Source: Acidimicrobiia bacterium (GTDB taxonomy: Bacteria > Actinomycetota > Acidimicrobiia > Acidimicrobiales > Poriferisodalaceae). Taken from it: DNA of 36,668 bases. The position numbers and the translations under genes were made by a program. Of this stretch, positions 17,748-30,390 are shown piece after piece; positions within the stretch are counted from its first letter, which is position 1; each line of letters begins with the position of its first letter. A model generated the notes under the pieces. That model searched no databases. It was not told the origin of the DNA and saw only the letters and a program-made list of their open reading frames with translations. The stretch is from NCBI GenBank assembly GCA_022828045.1, contig JAJEIW010000130.1, positions 1-36,668 of the forward strand. The letters are read 5' to 3'.

Positions 17748-19363
17748 TGCCGCCGCTCGACGAGCTGTTCGACGAGACGTTCGCGTCGCCGGGCGTCGAC
17801 TGGTGGGTGCTCGTCCCGCAGATCATCCTTGTCGGCGCTGCGCTCGGGCTGCTGCTGGTGGCCTCGCTGGCGCCGCGAGCGCTGCCTGCCTGGGCGTCCA
17901 CGATCGTCACGATCTCAACCGGCGCTGCCACCGCCATCACCGCGGCAATCCAGTGGACCGACTGGGGCTCTGCGCCGCGTTCCACTTTGGCGGGCGCATT
18001 CGTCAGCGACGGCTTCAGCCTGCTCATCACCGTGCTCGTCGGCGCGGGTGTGGTGATGACCGCCTTGGTCGCGCACTCCGCCCTCGACCGCTACGCCATG
18101 GCGCCGCCCGAATTCGCGGCGTTGCTGCTGGCGTCCGCCGCGGGCGCCGTGGTGATGGCCGGCGCCAACGACCTCATCGTGCTGTTCCTGGGCCTCGAAT
18201 CGCTCTCGATCGCCCTGTACGTGCTGATCGCACTGGCGGGCCGGCGTGCGAGCGCCCGCGAGTCCGCCATGAAGTACTTCGTGCTGGGTGCATTCAGCTC
18301 GGCATTCTTCCTGTACGGCATCGCGCTGGTCTACGGAGCCACCGGCGGCACCAATCTCAGCGGGATCTCGGAGTTCCTCTTCGGGACGGTCCGCGACAAC
18401 GACTACCTGCTGCTGGCCGGCGTCGCGTTGCTGCTGGTGGGCTTGGGGTTCAAGATCGCCGCTGTCCCGTTCCACTTCTGGGCACCCGATGTGTACGAGG
18501 GCGCCCCGAGCCCGGTCACCGGCTACTTGGCGTCGATCGCCAAGGCCGCGGGCTTCGCGGCGCTGGCGCGGGTGCTGTACGTGGCGGTGTTCCAGCAGGG
18601 CACCGCCTGGTCGCCGATCATCGTGGCGCTGGCGTTCGCATCGCTGTCGGTCGGCGCGGTGATGGCCATCTGCCAGTCGGACGTGAAGCGCATGCTGGCG
18701 TTCAGCTCGATCAGCCACGCCGGCTTCGTCCTGGTCGGCTTGGCGGCTATCGATCCCGACATCGTGGACCGGCTCTGGGCGAACTTCGCCGGCTCGGTCG
18801 GCGGCGCCGCCGATCTCGGCGACGGTGTCTCGGGGGCCGTTTTCTACCTCGTCGTCTACTCGTTCATGGCGCTGGGCAGCTTCGCCGTGCTGTCGGCGGT
18901 CGTCGGATCGTCGACCGATCCCGATGACGGCACCAGCCGCCATGATCTCAGCCGCTACAGCGGGCTCGCCCGCCGCCGACCGGTGCTGGCGCTCGCCTTT
19001 GCCGTGCTCCTGCTGGCGCAAGCAGGGGTGCCGCTCACGGCGGGGTTCGTGGCGAAGTTCGAAGTCATCCGAGCAGCCGTCGGCGAGGGCGTCTATGTCC
19101 TGGCGGCCGTTGCGATGGTCACTGCGGTCGTGAGCGCCTTCGCCTACCTGCGCGTCGTGCTGGCGATGTACGCACCGGACGGCGCATCCGTGGCTGATGA
19201 CGATCCTCCGACCGCCCGTGTCAGCCGCCCGCGCTGGGGAGATCTGCCGCTGACGACAGTGCTGGCCATCGCCCTCGCGGTGGCGGTGACCTTCGTCGTC
19301 GGCGTCCTGCCGCAGACGCTCCTCGAATGGAGCGCCGACGCCGCCCTGTCGATCTTCCCCTGA
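17747..19363 (+). CDS. nuoN: NADH-quinone oxidoreductase subunit N
   Basis: FKIAAVPFHFWAPDVYEGAPSPVTGYLASIAKAAGFAAL, KRMLAFSSISHAGFVLVGL. Confidence 0.96.
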
Positions 19364-19379
19364 CGCGAGCCGTCGCGTC
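19362..19379 (+). terminator. Perfect 7-bp hairpin at the end of the nuo operon (possible terminator or 3' stabiliser)
   Basis: GACGCGA-gccg-TCGCGTC begins inside the nuoN stop codon; no following T-tract, so intrinsic termination is uncertain. Confidence 0.35.
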
Positions 19380-19411
19380 GCTCGGGAATAGTCTGGCGGC
19401 CCCGGGATTCT

Positions 19412-20065
19412 GTGACGATAATCGCCGCTCGACGAGTTGCCGCCCTGCTGGCTCTGCTTGCGTTGCCTGTAGCGCTCGTCGTGGTTGCGGCGAGTCCAGC
19501 CGGTGCGCATCCGCCCGAGCGCTGCTTCTTCGGATGGACCGAGGTGGACGGTGCGCCCGTGGACGGCGGTCCCGACAATCCCGTCCAAGTCTGTTTGGAT
19601 GAGCCGTGCCGCGCCTATCCGAGCATCCACTTCGTTGGAGACGCCCCTGACGATCACATCTGTGTCGCGTCCCATCGTCACCCGTGGCGCGACGGTCTCA
19701 TCCGCTTGGCTTCCTTCGCCGCGTTCTGCCCATTGCTCTATGCGTTGATCATCACGCCGGAGGCGCTGGCGCAGATGAAGGAGGCCCGGCACGTCGGCTG
19801 GCGCACGATCGCGCATCGTCGGCGGCTGTACGAGGCCCTGCCGCGGAGTCACTGGCTGGCGTGGTGGTGCGGATTCGCGCCTGCGTTCATCTTCAGCTCT
19901 GCGGCGTCACCTCTCCTGCTGGAGTGGCTGTTCCCGCCCGTCGGCACGGTCACGGTGGCGCTCTACGTTGTTGCTTGCAGTTTCGTCACCGTGGTCGGCT
20001 CGCGTGTATGGACGCGTAAACGGCGGGAAAGCGAGCGAGCGGTATTGCAGCATTCCCCAGCCTGA
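19412..20065 (+). CDS. Hypothetical secreted/membrane protein
   Basis: GTG start, N-terminal signal peptide-like segment (ALLALLALPVALVVVAASPAGAH), two C-terminal TM segments; no recognised family. Confidence 0.65.
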   Translation: MTIIAARRVAALLALLALPVALVVVAASPAGAHPPERCFFGWTEVDGAPVDGGPDNPVQVCLDEPCRAYPSIHFVGDAPDDHICVASHRHPWRDGLIRLASFAAFCPLLYALIITPEALAQMKEARHVGWRTIAHRRRLYEALPRSHWLAWWCGFAPAFIFSSAASPLLLEWLFPPVGTVTVALYVVACSFVTVVGSRVWTRKRRESERAVLQHSPA

Positions 20066-20108
20066 ACTCGCCGGGGCTGCGTCTCAGCATGTGGTGTATA
20101 GTCTGGGT

Positions 20109-20339
20109 ATGCGGCGTATACAGCTCTACATGGAACCTGACATCGACGACGCCTTGACAGTGGTGGCTTCGCAGCGAGGCGTCTCGCGCTCGGCCTTGAT
20201 GCGCGACGCCGTGCGTGCGCTGCTTGATACCCATGGTCCAACGGAACCCGATCCCATCGATGCTCTTGTGGGATGGCTGGACGTAGAACCTAGCGACGAT
20301 ATCGATGCTGTCGTCTATGGCTACGAAACGGACACGTGA
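20109..20339 (+). CDS. Ribbon-helix-helix antitoxin, VapB-like
   Basis: MRRIQLYMEPDIDDALTVVASQRGVSRSALMRDAVRALL is a CopG/RHH-type fold; directly upstream of and overlapping a PIN gene. TATAGT lies 6 nt before the ATG. Confidence 0.85.
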   Translation: MRRIQLYMEPDIDDALTVVASQRGVSRSALMRDAVRALLDTHGPTEPDPIDALVGWLDVEPSDDIDAVVYGYETDT

Positions 20340-20731
20340 GATTCGCTGATACTTCGTTCTGGATCGCGCTACAAGTCCGACGCGATCGCAACCACGCTTC
20401 CGCTGCGGCCCTGTGGCGCAGCAATCGGCGACCAGTGCGGACCTCGAACGTCGTGCTCGGCGAAACATGGACCTGGCTGCGAAGCCGTGCCGGTCATGCG
20501 GTCGCAGCACGGGCCATCGCCGAAGTGCGCCTCTCTGGGCGTGTCTCGGTCGCGCTGGTCGGGGAGTCGATTGACGAGCGGGCGTGGGAATGGCTTCGGC
20601 GGCATGACGAGCGCGCCTACTCCTACGTCGATGCCACCAGCTTCGAGATCATGCGTCGCGAGCGGATCACCGAGGCGCTTGCTTTCGACGGAGACTTCAG
20701 CGCAGCGGGCTTCGTGGAGCTGCGCCCGTAG
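20336..20731 (+). CDS. PIN-domain ribonuclease toxin, VapC-like
   Basis: Starts MRFADTSFWIAL; acidic residues spaced as in PIN domains (FADTS, LGETW, YVDATSFEIM, FDGDF); GTG start overlaps the antitoxin stop. Confidence 0.87.
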   Translation: MRFADTSFWIALQVRRDRNHASAAALWRSNRRPVRTSNVVLGETWTWLRSRAGHAVAARAIAEVRLSGRVSVALVGESIDERAWEWLRRHDERAYSYVDATSFEIMRRERITEALAFDGDFSAAGFVELRP

Positions 20732-20750
20732 CCCCCAACCGCCCGGTTTG

Positions 20751-20798
20751 CAAAGTTTTGAACGAGAAGTCAAATTCACAGCAAATTTCAAAACTTTG
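20751..20798. promoter_or_regulatory. 12-bp perfect inverted repeat with 24-nt spacer, AT-rich
   Basis: CAAAGTTTTGAA (20751-20762) and TTCAAAACTTTG (20787-20798). Confidence 0.7.
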
Positions 20799-20814
20799 AA
20801 TCTGCAACATCGCT

Positions 20815-21195
20815 CCGCGACACCGAGCGATGCGTCCGACAGCCCGACTTCACCCAAACGCCGCTGCCCGCCGCGACTTCCGATGACTTGGACCCACTGG
20901 AGATCCAGCGTTTCCGCGACATGGCCATCAGCGAGCACGGCGACGCAGTACTTGCGTCTCTGGATGACGAAGCGCTGCTGCGTGCACTGGAACTCGTCGA
21001 TCTCTCAGGCCAGATCTGCGTCGGCAGTGTGCTGCTGTTCGGCACACAGGCCGCAGTGCGCCGTCACATCCCCGTCGCCGAAGTCGCCTTCCAGCATGTC
21101 AGCCCCGCGCTGGATGTTCTGGCGAACGACATCAGCTGCGTGCCGCTTCTTCGGGCGATGTCGGAGCTGTTCGAGCGGGTGCAGGCGCGCAATTG
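20815..21195 (+). pseudogene. Remnant of an AlbA_2/Schlafen-type (putative DNA-binding, ATP-binding) protein
   Basis: TPLPAATSDDLDPLEIQRFRDMA...LVDLSGQICVGSVLLFGTQAAVRRHIPVAEVAFQHV...PLLRAMSELFERVQARN resembles the middle of AlbA_2-type proteins; N-terminal AlbA domain and C-terminus missing. Confidence 0.6.
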
Positions 21196-21269
21196 TGTTG
21201 CGTCTTGTCGGCGAGCGCCGCACGGCGCGCTATGTGGCCGCAGCAGCTCAGTCCGACGGGACAACAGAC

Positions 21270-21362
21270 GGCGATCCCGTCGATGCTCTCCTCGGCGGTC
21301 TCGATGTCGAACCCAGCGATGAACTCGACTCGGTCATCTATGGCTCCGACAGGGACTCATAA
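21270..21362 (+). pseudogene. Duplicated C-terminal tail of the VapB-like antitoxin
   Basis: GDPVDALLGGLDVEPSDELDSVIYGSDRDS* versus PDPIDALVGWLDVEPSDDIDAVVYGYETDT* of the intact antitoxin; no RHH domain in frame upstream. Confidence 0.7.
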
Positions 21363-21487
21363 GGATCGCGGGTGCATCGCGGGCTCATCGAGACTGGGGT
21401 GATCGCGCCGTAGAGTGAGCGGCGAGTTCTCTGAAGCAACCAAGACGCACAGTTCGCAGGCCCTCCAGAACGAGCGGGGATGCTTCG

Positions 21488-24400
21488 ATGCTTGAAGGAA
21501 AGCTCCACGAGCACGATTTCAACGCCGCGCTCGCCGAGGCGATGAAGCGGATGCACGCCGACGATCGCGTCATCTTCAGCCACGAGCGCGTCGGCGTGCT
21601 CAGGCCCGTCTCCGGCGGCGGCTCGCGCCGCGTGGACGTGTTGGTGAGGGCCAAGAATCTCCTGCCGGTTGCCGTGGAGGTCGAATACGACCGCCCGGGC
21701 GCCAAGCCCGACCGCGATGCCGAGGCACGGCTGGGCCTCGAATTCGTCGGCGACGGTCGGGTGATCTCCTCAGCGATCTCGGTGCTCGCGCCCCCGCTGG
21801 CTGAGCAGTGGACCGATCACGAAGACGCCGTGAGCCGCCTCGTCGGCGGAGCGCAACTGCGGTACGCCGTCCTCTCTCGATCAGACGATGCGGCAGAGTC
21901 CCTCCGCTGGCCTCGGGCGGGCTGGCTCACCGGCACGGCGCAGTCGCTGGCCGAGCTTGCGGTCATGGTCTCGGTTCCGCCGGGTCAACTGGAGCTGGTA
22001 GCCGCCGACGCTGCCGACAAGATGCGCGGCATTTCAGAAGACCTCGCCGCCGACCTCAGCGACGACGCCAAGCTCCGGCTGGCGGCTGCGATGGGGCGGC
22101 CGTCTGGCTCGGACAGCCTCAGCGTGGTCGGCGTGGTGTGGCTGAACGCGTTTTTGTTCCAGGATCGGATCGCGCAGGCGCACCCCGATGTGCCGGAGCG
22201 TTCGGAGGCAGCGCCGGATTACGACCCGATTCCCGAGTTGGTCGGAAAGGCCTGGCAGGCGATTCGCAGGATCGACTACCGATCAGTGTTCGACCCCGCG
22301 GAGGCTGCTCTGCGAATCGTCTATCGAGATCTCGGAACGGCGCGCACCGCTCGATTGCTGGGGCGGGCGGCGCTCATCGCCGGACGGGTCGAATCGGGTG
22401 TGCTCGGCGTGTTCGACATCGGCGGTGAGCTGTTCCAGCGCCTTATCTCCGACAGGTCCGAGGCAGCGAGCTATTACACGCGGCCAGAGGTCGCGGAGTT
22501 CCTCGCCCACCTCACGGTCAACGACAGTGTGCGGCTGCCGCGCTCGGCCCGCGCGGTGGCGCTGGGCGAGTCGGATCACCTGGGCGAGGTCTTTCGCATC
22601 GCCGACTTCGCCTGCGGCACGGGAACTCTGCTCCGTGCGGCCTATCGGAGAGTTCGCGCCCTTGCGCGAGCGGCGGGAGCGCAGCCAGAAGGCTTGTCCG
22701 CGTTGCATACGCACCTGATGGAGGAAGGCTTCTGCGGCGTCGACATCTCGCCGATAGCGGCTCACCTGACTGCATCGAGCCTCTCGAACATCGAGCCCGC
22801 TGCCGATTACCGCCACACCAACATCGGCGTCGCGCAGGCATGCGGACCGACGGGAGCAACCGGATCGGTCGAGTATCTCGAAACCGATTATCTCGCCGAC
22901 CTCTTCGGATATGAGGCGTCGTCGACAGGGTCGGCACCTCGCTCTGACGCAGAAGCAGACGCACGAGGCCTGTACGCGCCCAAAGAGCGTTTCGACATCG
23001 TGATGATGAACCCGCCGTACTCGCGTTCACGCGGCGGTCAGGCCCTCTTCGACATCGCCGGGGCGACAGAAGCCGAGCGCAAGCGCGCCCAGAAGCGGGC
23101 GCAGGCCTTGGTCCGAGACACGCCGGCCGATCTCAAGGCCGGGCTTGCGGCAGTCTTCTGTGAGCTCGCGCGCCGAAAGCTCAGCCCCGGCGGGCGCGTC
23201 GGCATGGTGCTTCCCATCACCGCTGCGGCCTCTCCCGCGTGGTCGCTCATCAGGGCCATGTTCGAGACACACTTCGACGACCTCTTGCTCGTCGCATTTC
23301 CCGGCGCGACACGCGGCGGAGACAAGACGCTCTCGGCCGACACCGCCATGGGTGAGATGATCATCGCCGGCACCAGGCGATCTGAGCCCCACGCTGACCT
23401 CTCCGAGGCCGACATCATGACGGTGGCGCTCGATGAACCCTTCGGCACCATCGCCGTTGCTGCCGAGACGGGACGCTCAGTCGACGCCGCGCTCCGCGGC
23501 CGGGAGGAACAGCGGGAGGGCAACGTCACCGTCGGAACCGCGGTGAGCGGCCGCTGGACCATGCTGCCTGCTTCCGGGGGTGGGCCGTGGGCAGCCGTCG
23601 GCGCGGCGAGCTTCGGCGCCGTCGCCGTTGCCGAGCGGCTGACGCGGCGCGGCGAGTTCATGCCCCTCGACGCACACGAACCCGTATGCCGGGTAGCCAT
23701 GACGACAATCGGCGAGCTGTTCGAGCTTGGCCCGACGCATCACCGCATCGGCCATGTCGCGGGCAATGAGCCAATTGGTGCCTTCGAGCTGTGGCCGATC
23801 GCTGACGATCAAGTACGCCCCGACACGTCGTTGTGGGCATCCGATGCTGAGGCTCAGACCACCTTGACCGTTGACCCCACGCATTACGGTCACGTCGTCG
23901 GTCCACGGTTCAGCGATGCACGTGAACGTGCTCTCGTCCAGTTGCAACGCAAGCTGTCACGGACGAGTGGCGGCAAACCCAGCGACGCAGCAATCGAGGA
24001 GGCCCAAGCAGAAGCCGAAGCCGCCGAACGCTCCCGGTCGCAGAGCGCACTCGACGAGATGCGACGCTGCCGGTCCACGCTCTTCTACCAGCGGGGCATC
24101 TTCTGGCCGTCACAGGTGGCGCTTGCCGCGGTCACCGACAAACCGGTCATGGGTGGACGGGCCTGGTGTGCGCTCTTGCACGACGACCCCGTCGTCCGTT
24201 TCGGCTTCGCGATCTGGGCGAACTCGACGCTTGGGATGGTCGTCCACTGGTCGCGTGCGCAGCGCCAACAGCATGGACGCAGCAGTACGCAACTGGAAGG
24301 CATCCGACAGATGCCCTGCCCAGAATTCAACGAGACTGCAACGTACGCCAAGGCATTGGAATTGTTGGAACACGAGTCGGAACTCCTTCGCATGACACTC

Positions 24401-24562
24401 ATGCCCGCTCGTGACGCCTACCGTGATCCGGCGCGCGCGGCACTGGACGACGCAGCCGCCGGCATGCTCGGAATCCCCGACACCGAGTCGCTACGCGATC
24501 TCGCCCGCAACTGGTGCTGCGAGCCATCCGTCCACGACGGAACCCCGCCAGTGTTCGAGTGA
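21488..24562 (+). CDS. Large N6-adenine DNA methyltransferase with N-terminal nuclease-like region (possible single-polypeptide RM/defence protein)
   Basis: SAM motif ADFACGTGTLL, catalytic IVMMNPPYSRS, 1024 aa; N-terminal RRVDVLVRAKNLLPVAVEVEYD resembles a PD-(D/E)xK-type core; long C-terminal region suitable for target recognition. Confidence 0.85.
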   Translation: MLEGKLHEHDFNAALAEAMKRMHADDRVIFSHERVGVLRPVSGGGSRRVDVLVRAKNLLPVAVEVEYDRPGAKPDRDAEARLGLEFVGDGRVISSAISVLAPPLAEQWTDHEDAVSRLVGGAQLRYAVLSRSDDAAESLRWPRAGWLTGTAQSLAELAVMVSVPPGQLELVAADAADKMRGISEDLAADLSDDAKLRLAAAMGRPSGSDSLSVVGVVWLNAFLFQDRIAQAHPDVPERSEAAPDYDPIPELVGKAWQAIRRIDYRSVFDPAEAALRIVYRDLGTARTARLLGRAALIAGRVESGVLGVFDIGGELFQRLISDRSEAASYYTRPEVAEFLAHLTVNDSVRLPRSARAVALGESDHLGEVFRIADFACGTGTLLRAAYRRVRALARAAGAQPEGLSALHTHLMEEGFCGVDISPIAAHLTASSLSNIEPAADYRHTNIGVAQACGPTGATGSVEYLETDYLADLFGYEASSTGSAPRSDAEADARGLYAPKERFDIVMMNPPYSRSRGGQALFDIAGATEAERKRAQKRAQALVRDTPADLKAGLAAVFCELARRKLSPGGRVGMVLPITAAASPAWSLIRAMFETHFDDLLLVAFPGATRGGDKTLSADTAMGEMIIAGTRRSEPHADLSEADIMTVALDEPFGTIAVAAETGRSVDAALRGREEQREGNVTVGTAVSGRWTMLPASGGGPWAAVGAASFGAVAVAERLTRRGEFMPLDAHEPVCRVAMTTIGELFELGPTHHRIGHVAGNEPIGAFELWPIADDQVRPDTSLWASDAEAQTTLTVDPTHYGHVVGPRFSDARERALVQLQRKLSRTSGGKPSDAAIEEAQAEAEAAERSRSQSALDEMRRCRSTLFYQRGIFWPSQVALAAVTDKPVMGGRAWCALLHDDPVVRFGFAIWANSTLGMVVHWSRAQRQQHGRSSTQLEGIRQMPCPEFNETATYAKALELLEHESELLRMTLMPARDAYRDPARAALDDAAAGMLGIPDTESLRDLARNWCCEPSVHDGTPPVFE

Positions 24563-24622
24563 CCGCAGGTCGGCTCAGCGCGTCTTCCGGGGTGTGCGAC
24601 GTGTGCGCCCGTATGGAGCCTG

Positions 24623-25933
24623 TTAGGGGCCGAGGGCAGTGAGGGGCACTACGGAGATGCCGTCGGGGCGTGTGTAGGCGTAGCCGACGGGTGTCACCAC
24701 CATGAGCGCTGCTGGGGAACCGGCTCGGTCAGTGTCGACGCTTTCGGCCATTCGGTGCAGCGATGCTGCGGCTGTGTCGATCGAGGCTGGGCTGGGCGAG
24801 AGCTTGACCTCGACGGCGATCCACTCCCCGCCGAATCGTCTGCTGACGACGGCATCTGCTTCGATGCCGCTGTCGAGGCGGTAGTGCGTGATGTCGCAGT
24901 CGGCTCCCTCGGCGTAGATGCGCAGGTCTCGCACCACGAGCGACTCGAACAGCAAACCGCAGGTCTCGAGGTCGCGCAGCAGGGCATCGGGGTCTGCGCG
25001 CAGGATCGCGGCGGCCAGCGACGGGTCGGTGAAGTGCCGCTTCGGCGACCTGGTGAGGCGCGACCGCGAGCGAAGATGCGTCGGCCACGGCGGCTGGTCT
25101 TCGATCACGAAGATCTGGTGCAGAGCGTCGAGGTAGGCAGTTGCGGTCTGGTGGTTCAGCGGGCGTTCGCCACCGCTGTCCGCGGCGAGCCGTGCGACCG
25201 GCACTGTCGCAGCCGAGTTGCGGGCAAGCGAGATCATGAGCCGCTCCACCAGCACCGGGTTACGGCTGCGCGCCGACTCGCCGTTGATCTGCACGTGCCT
25301 CACCTCGTCGAGGTACTCACGCAGCCGTCGTTGTGCCTCAGCCGGCGTGGCGGCGGCGAGCCACGGCCAGCCGCCGATGCACAGCGCGTCGAGCACGTCG
25401 CGGAACTCCGGTTCAACGGCCGCGGCCTGAGCGGTCTCGCCCGCGAGCAGCGCTGCGAGCGACACTTGGCCCGTAGAGAGGCCCGACTCGAAGAGCGACA
25501 TCGGCCGCAGCCGAGTCCGCGCGATGCGGCCTGCACCGGAGTGCCGCATCCGGTCATTCGCCGGCACGGCCGACCCGGTGAGCAGGAACTGACCCGGCTC
25601 GGACGCGCGGTCGCAGGCATGGCGAACGTGGTTCCAGATCGTCGGCGCGAGCTGCCATTCGTCGAGCAGCTTGGGACGGGCGCCGTCGAGCACTGCATCG
25701 GGGCTGATGGCGGTCAGATCGCGTGCCGATGCATCGGCATCGAAGCGGACGATGCTGCGGGCGTGCCGCAGCCCGGTCCACGTCTTGCCGCAACCCTTGG
25801 GTCCCTCGATGAGCACCGCGCCCATGATGCGGAGCAGCTCGTCCACCTGCGCATCCGCGACGCGCTGCCGGTATCCCTGCGGCGTCAACGTTGCGCTGGG
25901 GCCGCCTAGCGCGGACCCCGGCTCAGCCGGCAT
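24623..25933 (-). CDS. AAA ATPase with DUF4143-type C-terminus
   Basis: Walker A IEGPKGCGKT, LLDEWQLAPTIWNHVRHACD, LTGSAVP; C-terminal GLLFESLVVRDLRIYAE...DSGIEADAVV...WIAVEVKLSP. Confidence 0.9.
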   Translation of the reverse strand: MPAEPGSALGGPSATLTPQGYRQRVADAQVDELLRIMGAVLIEGPKGCGKTWTGLRHARSIVRFDADASARDLTAISPDAVLDGARPKLLDEWQLAPTIWNHVRHACDRASEPGQFLLTGSAVPANDRMRHSGAGRIARTRLRPMSLFESGLSTGQVSLAALLAGETAQAAAVEPEFRDVLDALCIGGWPWLAAATPAEAQRRLREYLDEVRHVQINGESARSRNPVLVERLMISLARNSAATVPVARLAADSGGERPLNHQTATAYLDALHQIFVIEDQPPWPTHLRSRSRLTRSPKRHFTDPSLAAAILRADPDALLRDLETCGLLFESLVVRDLRIYAEGADCDITHYRLDSGIEADAVVSRRFGGEWIAVEVKLSPSPASIDTAAASLHRMAESVDTDRAGSPAALMVVTPVGYAYTRPDGISVVPLTALGP

Positions 25934-25980
25934 CGTCCAGCCTGTGATCTCGTCGCGTTGGCACTCGCCAAGGGCGTAGA

Positions 25981-26040
25981 GAATTCATATCTGCAAATAT
26001 AGCAAATTTACCATCCTGACTGTAGGAAATCCGATATTCA
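25981..26040. promoter_or_regulatory. AT-rich island upstream of the AAA/DUF4143 gene (probable promoter/operator)
   Basis: GAATTCATATCTGCAAATATAGCAAATTTACC... in a GC-rich background; ATATCTGCAAATAT is a near-palindrome; GCAAAT repeated. Confidence 0.5.
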
Positions 26041-26157
26041 GAGCGTAGTGATCTTGATCTCCGGTAGCGGCGCCCCGCACTGGATGACGCAACAGCTCGT
26101 TTGTCCCGAATCAGCGACTCGTTGTTGCTTCCCGATCTCGTCCCCTATCGTGACGCC

Positions 26158-26388
26158 GTGATCACTCCGCTCGGATGTGAGATGCGCGATCTCGCGCGAC
26201 AGATCGCAGATGGGTCTTCGCAGATGGGCGATATCGAGCAGCAGCAGACGCTACGGCGCGAGCTGGAACGCAAGCTTGCGGATGCCGGTGGGACCATGAA
26301 GGAGATCGCCAAGGCAGCGGGCGTTTCGCGGCTCACGGTGTATGCGTGGAGTCGTCAAGCCCACAAGGGTCGGCATCCCACGCTCTAG
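26158..26388 (+). CDS. Small helix-turn-helix DNA-binding protein
   Basis: TMKEIAKAAGVSRLTVYAWSR is HTH-like. GTG at 26158 is 6 nt after TATCGT, with TTGTTG 18 nt further upstream, suggesting a leaderless start rather than the track start 26101. Confidence 0.6.
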   Translation: MITPLGCEMRDLARQIADGSSQMGDIEQQQTLRRELERKLADAGGTMKEIAKAAGVSRLTVYAWSRQAHKGRHPTL

Positions 26389-26501
26389 GGTCCACGCCGA
26401 CTGCGCGGCACGGCGGTTCACCAGTGGTCGATCCCGTCGACGTACTCGTAGGGCAATTCGGGCTTTCGATACCCCGGTCGCCCTGGCGGCCATCTTCAGC
26501 A

Positions 26502-26801
26502 CTAGCGATCAAGCCTGCTGATCGGTGGATTGATGCTGTGTCGTCGCAGCATGACCGTGGCGATGTCGCGTAGTTGCTTGTCGGTGATGCGCCGCGGCCA
26601 CCGCGCCGTCACGTAGGTGTGCGTGTCAGTAACGACGGCGGCGCTGCTGCGTCGAGGCCAACCCTCGATGCGCATGACAGGCCAGCACTGTCCTGAGCTG
26701 TCCTTGACGGTGCCGATATCGCGACCTGTCAGGTCTCGCTTCCCGCGACGAACTGTGCCGATCCATCCATACCCATTCAGTATTGGAACGTCAGCGCTCA
26801 C
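26502..26801 (-). CDS. Hypothetical small protein
   Basis: 99-aa ORF in a gap with no competing CDS on the other strand; no recognised domain. Confidence 0.4.
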   Translation of the reverse strand: MSADVPILNGYGWIGTVRRGKRDLTGRDIGTVKDSSGQCWPVMRIEGWPRRSSAAVVTDTHTYVTARWPRRITDKQLRDIATVMLRRHSINPPISRLDR

Positions 26802-26880
26802 GGCGTCCTCGAACGCGGAAGTACTGCCCGTAACGCTATGCCCTTCTGTCCGAGTGGCGCTCCATGGGTTTCACCGTGTG

Positions 26881-27020
26881 TTGATGTGACAGAAGTGATC
26901 AATCGCACCAGTTTGGCTTAACTGCCATCGGCCAAACTGCCGGTTGCGGCGAACCGGGCACCCGTGAACGATGGTGCCTGCGGAGCTTGGGGTTGAAGCT
27001 CCTGCAGGGAGGACCTGCCC
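26881..27020 (+). promoter_or_regulatory. Structured 5' region of the PTS operon with successive inverted repeats; the last places the SD in a loop
   Basis: TTGAT-N12-ATCAA (26881-26902); CAGTTTGGC-N13-GCCAAACTG (26909-26939); GGCACC-N10-GGTGCC (26957-26978); GAGCTT-N7-AAGCTC (26983-27001); GCAGG-gagga-CCTGC (27004-27018) before GTG 27021. Confidence 0.6.
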
Positions 27021-28787
27021 GTGACGGCGACCGGCGAGTGGTCATACGACCGATACCGAGAGGGCACGGCGCCCCTTCCGCGTCCGAATCTGGCATGGAA
27101 TAGCTACGGCAGAGGCGTCGAGAGCATCGGCCGCGACGGGCGCCCGGAACCGGTCGATGTGCCGGCGCTGGCGCCCGATCAACTGCTGGTGCGGGTCGAC
27201 GCTGTCGGGCTCTGCTTCTCCGACGTGAAGCTGATCCGTCTGGGCTCCGAGCATCCCAAGCTGTACGGACGCGATCTGTCGATTGACCCCATTCGCCTCG
27301 GCCACGAGGCGACGGTGACGGTCATCGAGGTGGGCGACGACCTCGCCGACACTTACCGCACCGGTGATCGTCTCGCCATCCAGCCGGACATCTACTTGAA
27401 CGGCCGCAGTGTGGCCTACGGCTACACCATCCCCGGCGGCCTGATCCAGTACCACCTGATCGGTCCCGAGATCCTCGCTGCAGACGGTGTCTCCTATGTG
27501 ATTCCGGTTGCTGAGGGCATCGGATACGCGGCAGCAGCGTTGTCTGAGCCCTGGGCATGCGTGGAAGCTGCATACACGCAGCGCCGACGGCTGTGGCCGC
27601 GCAGCGACGGCACGGCCTGGATCATCGGCCACCCCGACGACGAGCGCAGCTACGACTTCGGCGAGACGCTTCGCGACACCGCTCGCGTCGTGCTCACAGG
27701 TGTGAGCCCGAGCACCGTCACGGCCGTACTCAAGGCCACGGGTCCGCGTACCGAGACATCTGTCGTCGATGCCTTGGAGTTGGCGGAGTATTCCTCGCTT
27801 GTCGATCGTGAGACCGATGGAGAGGGCTTCGACGACATCATTCTCCTCGACCCGAGGTCTGCCTCCGAGGTGACCGAGATCGCGCGGCACATCGCGTTTC
27901 GCGGCACGCTCAATCTCGTCAGCGAACGCTCGCTGGACGGTCCGTCGTCTATCGACTTCGGTCGTTTGCACTACGACTACACGGCCTTTGTGGGCACACG
28001 CGGCCCGAAGATTGCGGCGGCATACGGCGAGCAGCGCAATCGCTGTGATCTCCGTCCCGGCGGTTTGGCGGTATTCGTCGGCGCAGGCGGACCGATGGGT
28101 CAGATGCACGTGCAGCGCGCGCTCGAGAAGGCCGATGGCCCCGCGGTTGTCATCGGCATCGACCCCGACCGCGGGCGCCTCGACGTGCTGGCCGACTCGC
28201 TCGGCCCGCTCGCGGAACGCTCTGGCTGCGAACTCATCGTGCTGAATGCCGACGCGTCCGATCCGGGCGTGCGTGAGCTTGTCGATCAGCGTTCAGCCGG
28301 AGCTGGTGCCGACGATGTCATCGTCACGGTGCCAGTGGCATCGGTGATGGCTTCGGCGGCGCAGTTGATGAGCCCCGACGGGATGCTGGTGTTCTTCGCT
28401 GGCGTCGCCAACGGCACCACTGGGCCGCTCGACATGAGCCCGGTGTATCTGAGCAATGCTCAATACACGGGCACGTCGGGTTCGACACTGGATGATCAGG
28501 CGCTGGTGCTCGACAAAACGGCACAGGGCTCCCTGTCGCCCGACTTGAATCTGGCCGCGGTCGGTGGAATCGAAGCCGGCCGGGACGGCGTGCAGGCGAT
28601 GCTCGATGGCCGGTTCGCCGGAAAGATCGTCATATTCCCCCAGGTCACCGGAATGCCGCTGCTCGGACTGGACGAGCTGGCCGACAAGTTCCCGGAGATC
28701 GGCAGCGCCTTGGGACCGCAGGGCCAGTGGACCTCCGAAGCCGAACGGCGGCTGCTCGAGATCTGCGGAGTCGTCGAGGACTCGTGA
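27021..28787 (+). CDS. Zinc-type MDR dehydrogenase (alcohol/sugar-phosphate dehydrogenase-like, SorE-like), 588 aa
   Basis: DQLLVRVDAVGLCFSDVKLIR...RLGHEATVTVIEVG (GroES-like N-terminus); Rossmann motif VFVGAGGPMGQMHVQRAL; first gene of a PTS operon. Confidence 0.8.
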   Translation: MTATGEWSYDRYREGTAPLPRPNLAWNSYGRGVESIGRDGRPEPVDVPALAPDQLLVRVDAVGLCFSDVKLIRLGSEHPKLYGRDLSIDPIRLGHEATVTVIEVGDDLADTYRTGDRLAIQPDIYLNGRSVAYGYTIPGGLIQYHLIGPEILAADGVSYVIPVAEGIGYAAAALSEPWACVEAAYTQRRRLWPRSDGTAWIIGHPDDERSYDFGETLRDTARVVLTGVSPSTVTAVLKATGPRTETSVVDALELAEYSSLVDRETDGEGFDDIILLDPRSASEVTEIARHIAFRGTLNLVSERSLDGPSSIDFGRLHYDYTAFVGTRGPKIAAAYGEQRNRCDLRPGGLAVFVGAGGPMGQMHVQRALEKADGPAVVIGIDPDRGRLDVLADSLGPLAERSGCELIVLNADASDPGVRELVDQRSAGAGADDVIVTVPVASVMASAAQLMSPDGMLVFFAGVANGTTGPLDMSPVYLSNAQYTGTSGSTLDDQALVLDKTAQGSLSPDLNLAAVGGIEAGRDGVQAMLDGRFAGKIVIFPQVTGMPLLGLDELADKFPEIGSALGPQGQWTSEAERRLLEICGVVEDS

Positions 28788-29710
28788 TCACAACGCTGAC
28801 GCCGAATCCGAGTTTCGACCGGACACTGCGCGTCAGTGCACTTCAGCGAGGCGAGGTGCACCGGGCATCACTCGTACGCGTCGAGTGCGCCGGCAAGGGA
28901 GTCAACGTCGCCCGCGCCCTCGCTGTCAACGAGCACCCGGCGAGGGCCGTGTTCCCGGCCAACGATGAAGACTTCGCAGCCTTTGATGCCGCGTTGACCG
29001 CAACCGGGGTGACGTCGCATGCGGTCCGGATTCGAGGGTCCATCCGGAGCAACATCACCGTGGTCGAGCCCGACGGCACGACCACGAAAGTCAACGAGCC
29101 GGGACCGGAACTCAATGGTGCTGAGGCTGCCGAGCTGATACGAGCCGCGGTGACGGCCTCGGATTGGCTGATTGCCAGCGGAAGCCTTGCACCTCGAACG
29201 CCCACGGACTTCTACGCTCAGCTCGCCGCGTCACTTCCCGACGCGGCGCATCGGCTCGCTGTCGATTCAAGTGGTCAACCGCTTCAACAGCTCGTCGGTA
29301 CACCGTGCGCAGTGGTGAAGCCAAACCTCAGTGAGCTGGCCGATCTCACACCCCGGCGCTTGTGCACCGTGGGCGATGTCGTCGACGCAGCCCGGGATCT
29401 GCACGACGGCGGCTGGGGTTCGGTGCTGGTCAGTCTCGGACGCTTCGGCGCGGTGCTGGTGAGTGACGAGATCTCCTACGGCACGGTCGCTGCGACCGAT
29501 GTACGCAACACGGTGGGAGCGGGCGATGCACTGCTGGCTGGTTTCATCTCTGCAGGCGGTCGGGGAGTGACAGCGCTCGCCGAGGGCCTTGCCTGGGCCG
29601 CGGCCGCGGTGAGATCGGTGGGCACGGCGGGCGCCCGCGTCAGCCTTGATGATCGATGTGCGGTCGTCGTGTCGCAGTGTGTGCCGCGAGATCTGCCCGT
29701 GGAGGAGTGA
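28784..29710 (+). CDS. PfkB-family sugar-phosphate kinase (1-phosphofructokinase/tagatose-6-phosphate kinase type)
   Basis: TLTPNPSFDRTL...GKGVNVARAL...KPNLSEL...NTVGAGDALLAGFI; GTG at 28784 overlaps the upstream stop. Confidence 0.92.
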   Translation: MITTLTPNPSFDRTLRVSALQRGEVHRASLVRVECAGKGVNVARALAVNEHPARAVFPANDEDFAAFDAALTATGVTSHAVRIRGSIRSNITVVEPDGTTTKVNEPGPELNGAEAAELIRAAVTASDWLIASGSLAPRTPTDFYAQLAASLPDAAHRLAVDSSGQPLQQLVGTPCAVVKPNLSELADLTPRRLCTVGDVVDAARDLHDGGWGSVLVSLGRFGAVLVSDEISYGTVAATDVRNTVGAGDALLAGFISAGGRGVTALAEGLAWAAAAVRSVGTAGARVSLDDRCAVVVSQCVPRDLPVEE

Positions 29711-29712
29711 GC

Positions 29713-30390
29713 ATGCGCGAACAGTTCCCGCTCCCGATCTCGGCGATGTTCCGCTCCGGAATCTCGGGGTACTTCAAGAACGTTGTCCCGCTGACCTCCG
29801 CCGCTGCGGTCACCATCGCAGTATTCGGCGTCTTCCGATTCTGGGCACAGGCTGCCACCAATGACGACAGGGTCTTTCAGTCGATCGTCTTTGATCTCGT
29901 CGGGCTCGTGCTGGCTGGCACGATTGCGCTGCCGTGGTTCGCGTATGCCCTTGATGCTGCTCGCGACAAGCCGATCGACGTTGGCGGGCCATGGCGCAGC
30001 GGCAAACAGTTCGCCGCCCAGTTCGTATGCGCAGTCTTCTTCTGGGCGGCTTTCTTGCTCGGATTGCGCTACTTGGCAGGAATCCCGTCGATTCTCGCCG
30101 CGCTGTTCTACGGGTTCTACGGCTACGTCGTCGCAGATCGGGCGGCGAAGGGAGGCCTGCGAGCACTGGGCACCAGCGTCCGCCTCGGCACCAAGCGACG
30201 GGTTGCACTCTTCGCGATATTGGCGCTGTTCGGAGCATTCAATCTGCTGGCCGCGATCCCGCTCGGTTATGCCGTATCAGTGCTGACGGTCGTGCTCACG
30301 CTTGCCTTGCTCACCGTCACCGCCAGCGTCACGCTCGTCGGGTGGGCATGCCTGTACGACGCCTTGACTGAGCGACTGGACGAGCAATGA
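29713..30390 (+). CDS. Uncharacterised multi-TM membrane protein in the PTS operon
   Basis: About five hydrophobic segments; ATG 2 nt after the PfkB stop; end overlaps the EI start. Family not recognised. Confidence 0.75.
   Translation: MREQFPLPISAMFRSGISGYFKNVVPLTSAAAVTIAVFGVFRFWAQAATNDDRVFQSIVFDLVGLVLAGTIALPWFAYALDAARDKPIDVGGPWRSGKQFAAQFVCAVFFWAAFLLGLRYLAGIPSILAALFYGFYGYVVADRAAKGGLRALGTSVRLGTKRRVALFAILALFGAFNLLAAIPLGYAVSVLTVVLTLALLTVTASVTLVGWACLYDALTERLDEQ

Follow-up and report, generated by a model that had tools for sequence, protein, structure and literature searches.

The window, by which we mean the whole 36,668-nucleotide stretch analysed from contig JAJEIW010000130.1 of an Acidimicrobiia bacterium, carries at 21488–24562 on the forward strand an intact open reading frame with an ATG start. 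The encoded 1,024-residue protein is, from its orthologues, dN/dS, AlphaFold2 model and fold match, a predicted Type IIC/IIG-like restriction–modification enzyme. The genome, assembled in 314 contigs and 84% complete, contains a single copy of the gene, and full-length orthologues in three congeners are each exactly 1,024 residues long, 89–94% identical to it and alike in their start region, MxEGKLHEH. A codon alignment of the four gene copies is free of gaps and gives whole-gene dN/dS values of 0.10–0.13, so that the reading frame, reported in a preliminary description, is confirmed as a real and selected coding sequence; with dN/dS at about 0.1 relative to the three congeneric orthologues, the selection on the protein is purifying.

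Upstream on the same strand lie an RHH antitoxin-like ORF of uncertain start (19968–20339; RHH_1, E = 2.4e-7) and the gene for a VapC-like toxin with a PIN domain (20336–20731; PIN, E = 2.3e-13); downstream, an AAA_14/DUF4143 ATPase is encoded on the reverse strand (24623–25933; DUF4143, E = 1.6e-27; PADLOC PDC-S01, E = 1.7e-61). The left flank is occupied by the respiratory complex I (nuo) operon and the right flank by alcohol dehydrogenase (ADH), PfkB kinase and PTS genes. The segment 20888–21362 appears to be the remains of a second, decayed antitoxin unit: its end resembles the RHH antitoxin tail (52% over 42 residues), and it overlaps an ORF with a 71% relative at the same site in another congener (L162).

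The enzyme gene is carried at the site between nuoN and the next operon, with complex I genes on one side and sugar-metabolism genes on the other, by 4 of 11 congeners. This site is almost empty in G018 (the next matched gene lies less than 100 bp away), holds the toxin–antitoxin pair only in G020, the pair plus the enzyme gene in G021 and G022, the enzyme gene alone in G023, and other cargo in G016, G019 and G024; it is therefore a variable cargo site with some possible defence genes. Synonymous divergence in nuoN is 0.69 to G023 and 0.61 to G021, whereas in the N-terminal domain of the enzyme gene it is only 0.12–0.17, which suggests that the gene has been exchanged between species. Among congeners the insertion site (window 19360–30000; L035–L037, L159–L165) ranges from nearly empty to about 11 kb, with cargo comprising toxin–antitoxin genes, Schlafen/AlbA, an AAA/SMC-like ATPase plus phosphoesterase, and ADH/PfkB. 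At this site (L165 5047–7736 against window 27021–29710), ADH shares 99% and PfkB 91% identity with the G019 genes, whereas nuoN shares 80%, suggesting recent exchange between species. The toxin–antitoxin pair and the AAA/DUF4143 ATPase, on which the idea of a defence island had been based, are real, but they occupy a small cargo site flanked by housekeeping operons, which supports this idea weakly.

AlphaFold2 modelled the protein from 76 homologues with a mean pLDDT of 87.4 and a pTM of 0.90. The predicted layout consists of a nuclease domain, a helical spacer, a gamma-class N6-adenine methyltransferase, a target-recognition region and C-terminal helices, all read from the forward strand. 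The nuclease-like domain (21488–21937) contains a helix (residues 8–23), three strands (28–40, 47–55 and 58–67), a second helix (74–81) and a further strand (95–101). The spacer, about residues 151–305 (21938–22402), is made up of helices spanning residues 151–304 and leads into the methyltransferase domain, about residues 306–650 (22403–23437), which is assigned from profile matches, AlphaFold2 and fold matches. Beyond it lie the predicted target-recognition region, about residues 651–900 (23438–24187), placed by low family conservation and orthologue divergence, and the C-terminal helical module seen in the model, about residues 901–1024 (24188–24559). The best solved-structure match of the whole model is the Type IIG enzyme BpuSI (E = 3e-20), with an alignment spanning its length, followed by CamA, DrdV and BrxX/PglX. 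When superposed as a whole, the model fits BpuSI poorly (TM 0.32, rmsd 18), possibly owing to a different domain orientation; the match therefore supports the local folds and their order more than their arrangement in space. The single-protein architecture of Type IIG/IIL kind proposed earlier is well supported by the predicted fold together with this match.

The putative nuclease site lies in VDVLVRAKNLLPVAVEVEYD, residues 49–68. D50 (21635–21637), a predicted metal ligand on the strand 47–55, is present in all 99 homologues, as is E64; E66, which shares the strand 58–67 with E64, is kept in 93, so the E-x-E motif formed by E64-V65-E66 (21677–21685) is not a matter of chance. The other homologues have lysine (2), serine (2) or alanine (2) at position 66. 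E8, N12 and E33, the last an acidic residue on strand 1 (21584–21586), are each retained in 98 of the 99. Two profile alignments, one to an HSTV-4 viral protein annotated as Type IIG and one to six sister proteins, place RVDVLVRAKNLLPVAVEVEY on QPDFQIKVNGMTFVGEAKW and RPDVLIQMLGLRVAIEGKF, and E66 therefore matches the catalytic lysine of the PD...E-x-K site in those proteins. The viral alignment (hhalign probability 99.9, E = 7.5e-35, residues 4–652) sets the PD...E-x-E of the window family on PD...E-A-K. That to the six sister proteins, which bear PDVLIQMLGLRVAIEGK and include plasmid N-6 DNA methylases of Aminobacter and Sulfuricystis, covers 890 columns with E = 1e-106.

Compared by itself, the N-terminal domain drew nothing from Pfam or PDB sequence searches, no significant Foldseek match (best E = 0.034), and E = 0.15 in hhalign against the N-terminus of the viral Type IIG protein, support there coming from the full-length alignment. 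The Foldseek list is nevertheless rich in PD-(D/E)xK nucleases (MGME1, Cas4, AdnAB, RecU, McrC, SduA, EXO5, Card1 and EndoMS). The claim of a nuclease-like N-terminus with E-x-E in the preliminary description is supported by the fold, the invariant acidic residues and the alignment to canonical E-x-K proteins. The predicted fold and D50/E64 accord with a candidate PD-(D/E)xK active site in which E66 takes the place of the lysine.

In the METHYLTRANSFERASE region, the core residues of motif I (DFACGTG) and motif IV (NPPY) do not vary; both motifs are those of a gamma-class N6-adenine methyltransferase, and an N6-adenine methyltransferase core had first been noted from FACGTGTLL and NPPY. The SAM-binding motif DFACGTGTLL occupies residues 373–382 (22604–22633), with D373, C376, G377, T378, G379 and L381 invariant in the 76 homologues, and the methylation motif NPPY occupies residues 508–511 (23009–23020), with N508, P509 and P510 invariant. 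Pfam matches to Eco57I, N6_Mtase and MmeI_Mtase all fall below their curated cut-offs (for MmeI_Mtase, the Type IIL domain, 16.3 bits against 27), and the protein passes no Pfam cut-off. Conservation within the family is lowest over residues 701–860, where 8.7% of columns reach a conservation of 80% or more, compared with 27% for the methyltransferase; such low conservation is expected of a target-recognition region. Divergence among orthologues likewise peaks in the C-terminal part.

Several known systems resemble the protein. By their published description, the Thermus Type IIS/IIC/IIG enzymes TspDTI, Tth111II and TsoI likewise combine nuclease, helical, methyltransferase and specificity parts and a D-ExE site in one polypeptide, the layout of TspDTI being R-Mh-Mc-S with D-ExE (PMC3384240); they differ in their methyltransferase motifs, DPACGSG and NPPW instead of DFACGTG and NPPY. 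BpuSI (PDB 3s1s) shares the domain order and is the top full-length fold match, a likeness at the level of fold, with about 12% identity and another domain orientation in the model. The domain boundaries of the Type IIL enzyme MmeI (1–155/156–300/301–620/621–825/826–919; PMC4833311) are close to those found here, whereas its nuclease site is D70-E80-x-K82 rather than D50-E64-x-E66. DrdV, also Type IIL, is among the top fold matches and gives a weak sequence match (7lo5, E = 0.0014). The Aminobacter and Sulfuricystis methylases and the HSTV-4 protein are homologous over most of their length, including the N-terminal domain, but keep the canonical E-x-K. The earlier choice of Type IIG/IIL enzymes as precedents thus holds, while that of BREX PglX fits more poorly: the methyltransferase and target-recognition folds are alike, but no PglZ was found in the incomplete genome.

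An alignment-guided scan of GTDB genomes returned at least 305 related loci, of which the best 80 were kept. The matches listed come from Chloroflexota, Pseudomonadota, Acidimicrobiia, Poribacteria, Planctomycetota, Gemmatimonadota, Bacteroidota, Acidobacteriota and Cyanobacteriota, and the closest named records among them are Acidimicrobiia MAGs at 93% and 89% identity. Many relatives' records (for example, Synechococcus spongiarum and Palauibacter rhopaloidicola) resemble, to judge from their names, what we take to be sponge-metagenome series. Several genomes of the window's genus carry multiple diverged paralogues of about 1,000 residues, one with an in-frame TAG, and tandem pairs of the gene occur in several genomes (L061, L066, L115 and L131), possibly placing two specificities side by side. 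A scan of viral contigs (IMG/VR) with the single protein gave no match, and with the alignment as query eight relatives. A homologue with 27% identity over 90% is found on the Nitrosospira plasmid pNRS527-2 (L031/L034), which also carries type IV secretion genes; this homologue is not listed as a gene in PLSDB, and its ORF reaches the end of the record. It is followed by genes for an ATP-binding protein and an S8 peptidase, a pair not found to recur beside other homologues.

Neighbour clustering around about 99 homologues from many phyla revealed no recurrent partner. The commonest neighbour family (8 loci) was rejected as a candidate, its sequences being ABC-transporter-type ATPases, and so was a mad3-like match beside one paralogue (L038), which belongs to an ABC transporter operon. 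Directly downstream of another paralogue lies a KAP P-loop NTPase gene (L040 7087–8493; PADLOC PDC-S20, E = 5.8e-46), with relatives in L043 and L072. As described earlier, no separate specificity or restriction gene adjoins 21488–24562, and the window contains no BREX, DISARM or MADS partner gene. A search of the window's genome (84% complete) detected neither PglZ, which is also not encoded next to the enzyme, nor an MZB/DrmB-type domain of the kind sought as a sign of DISARM. These results support an enzyme that works alone and, on genomic evidence, agree with the partnerless organization of Type IIC/IIG systems. They also make it very unlikely that the protein is a BREX/DISARM/MADS-type methyltransferase requiring other proteins for restriction, as does the nuclease domain within the same chain. 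Structural resemblance to BrxX/PglX favours such a role, and so does the likeness of the methyltransferase core to mad2 (E = 1.5e-10, with all 13 members tested matching); the NCBIfam MAD2 model scores 19.5 bits against a cut-off of 720.

The main rival, which we judge unlikely, is a solitary N6-adenine methyltransferase whose nuclease-fold N-terminus has lost its cutting function and now has a structural or DNA-binding role. It would account for the exchange of the canonical lysine for glutamate in 93 of 99 homologues and for the N-terminal fold matches that stay short of significance. In the window's own ten-member clade, moreover, four members have serine or alanine at position 66; taken with the loss of the lysine, this means that nuclease activity might have been lost in part of the family. 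Against this rival, D50 and E64 are invariant, and E33 and E66 nearly so, across very divergent proteins from many phyla, which would be unexpected of a dead site. The D-ExE pattern, though atypical, is not new: it has been described in TspDTI, a Type IIC/IIG enzyme with experimentally demonstrated DNA cleavage, and in BamHI, so loss of the lysine is not evidence of inactivity; TspGWI, with PDx13ExK, has the same spacing as the window protein (PMC3384240). A methylation-dependent or otherwise conditional effector (Type IV-like or abortive), using the methyltransferase fold as a sensor, would suit a site that holds a toxin–antitoxin pair and a DUF4143 ATPase, yet the invariance of motifs I and IV argues for catalysis rather than sensing, and we regard this as the least probable reading of all.

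We therefore favour, as the probable explanation, a self-contained bifunctional Type IIC/IIG-like restriction–modification enzyme with a D-ExE nuclease site. This reading is based on the predicted domain order and fold, the conserved active-site residues, the E-x-K homologues and the lack of recurrent partners; nuclease, methyltransferase and specificity parts appear to be united in one polypeptide, as judged from predicted fold and homology to an annotated Type IIG protein. DNA cleavage, methylation, sequence specificity and an anti-phage role are what we infer for it. The C-terminal half would bind a short DNA sequence, in which the central gamma-class domain would methylate an adenine using SAM. 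At unmethylated sites the DNA would be cut by the N-terminal domain of PD-(D/E)xK fold, which the helical spacer keeps at a distance, with D50, E64 and E66 forming a cutting site of BamHI/TspDTI style (D-ExE) in place of D-ExK. Cutting would probably follow dimerization of the nuclease domain, as in other Type IIG/IIL enzymes.

The protein very probably both marks the DNA of its own cell and cuts foreign DNA that lacks the mark. Coming from a mostly unnamed family with an unusual cutting site of a type already described, it adds a good new member to a known kind of bacterial defence enzymes. A more far-reaching possibility, which we consider rather doubtful, is that this large unnamed single-chain family has nearly fixed its catalytic lysine as glutamate, so that the nuclease would use metal differently or be regulated in another way (for example, by a need for two sites or a second signal), and that it is common among bacteria of marine sponge metagenomes. 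The family is large and has no curated name of its own in the libraries searched, and if it were named as Type IIG-like, many large methylases that now lack annotation could be correctly recognized as restriction–modification enzymes. Because sister families keep the lysine and a few members have lost the glutamate, it forms a natural test set for the effect of the lysine-to-glutamate exchange on the nuclease site, as well as for the diversification of specificity regions.
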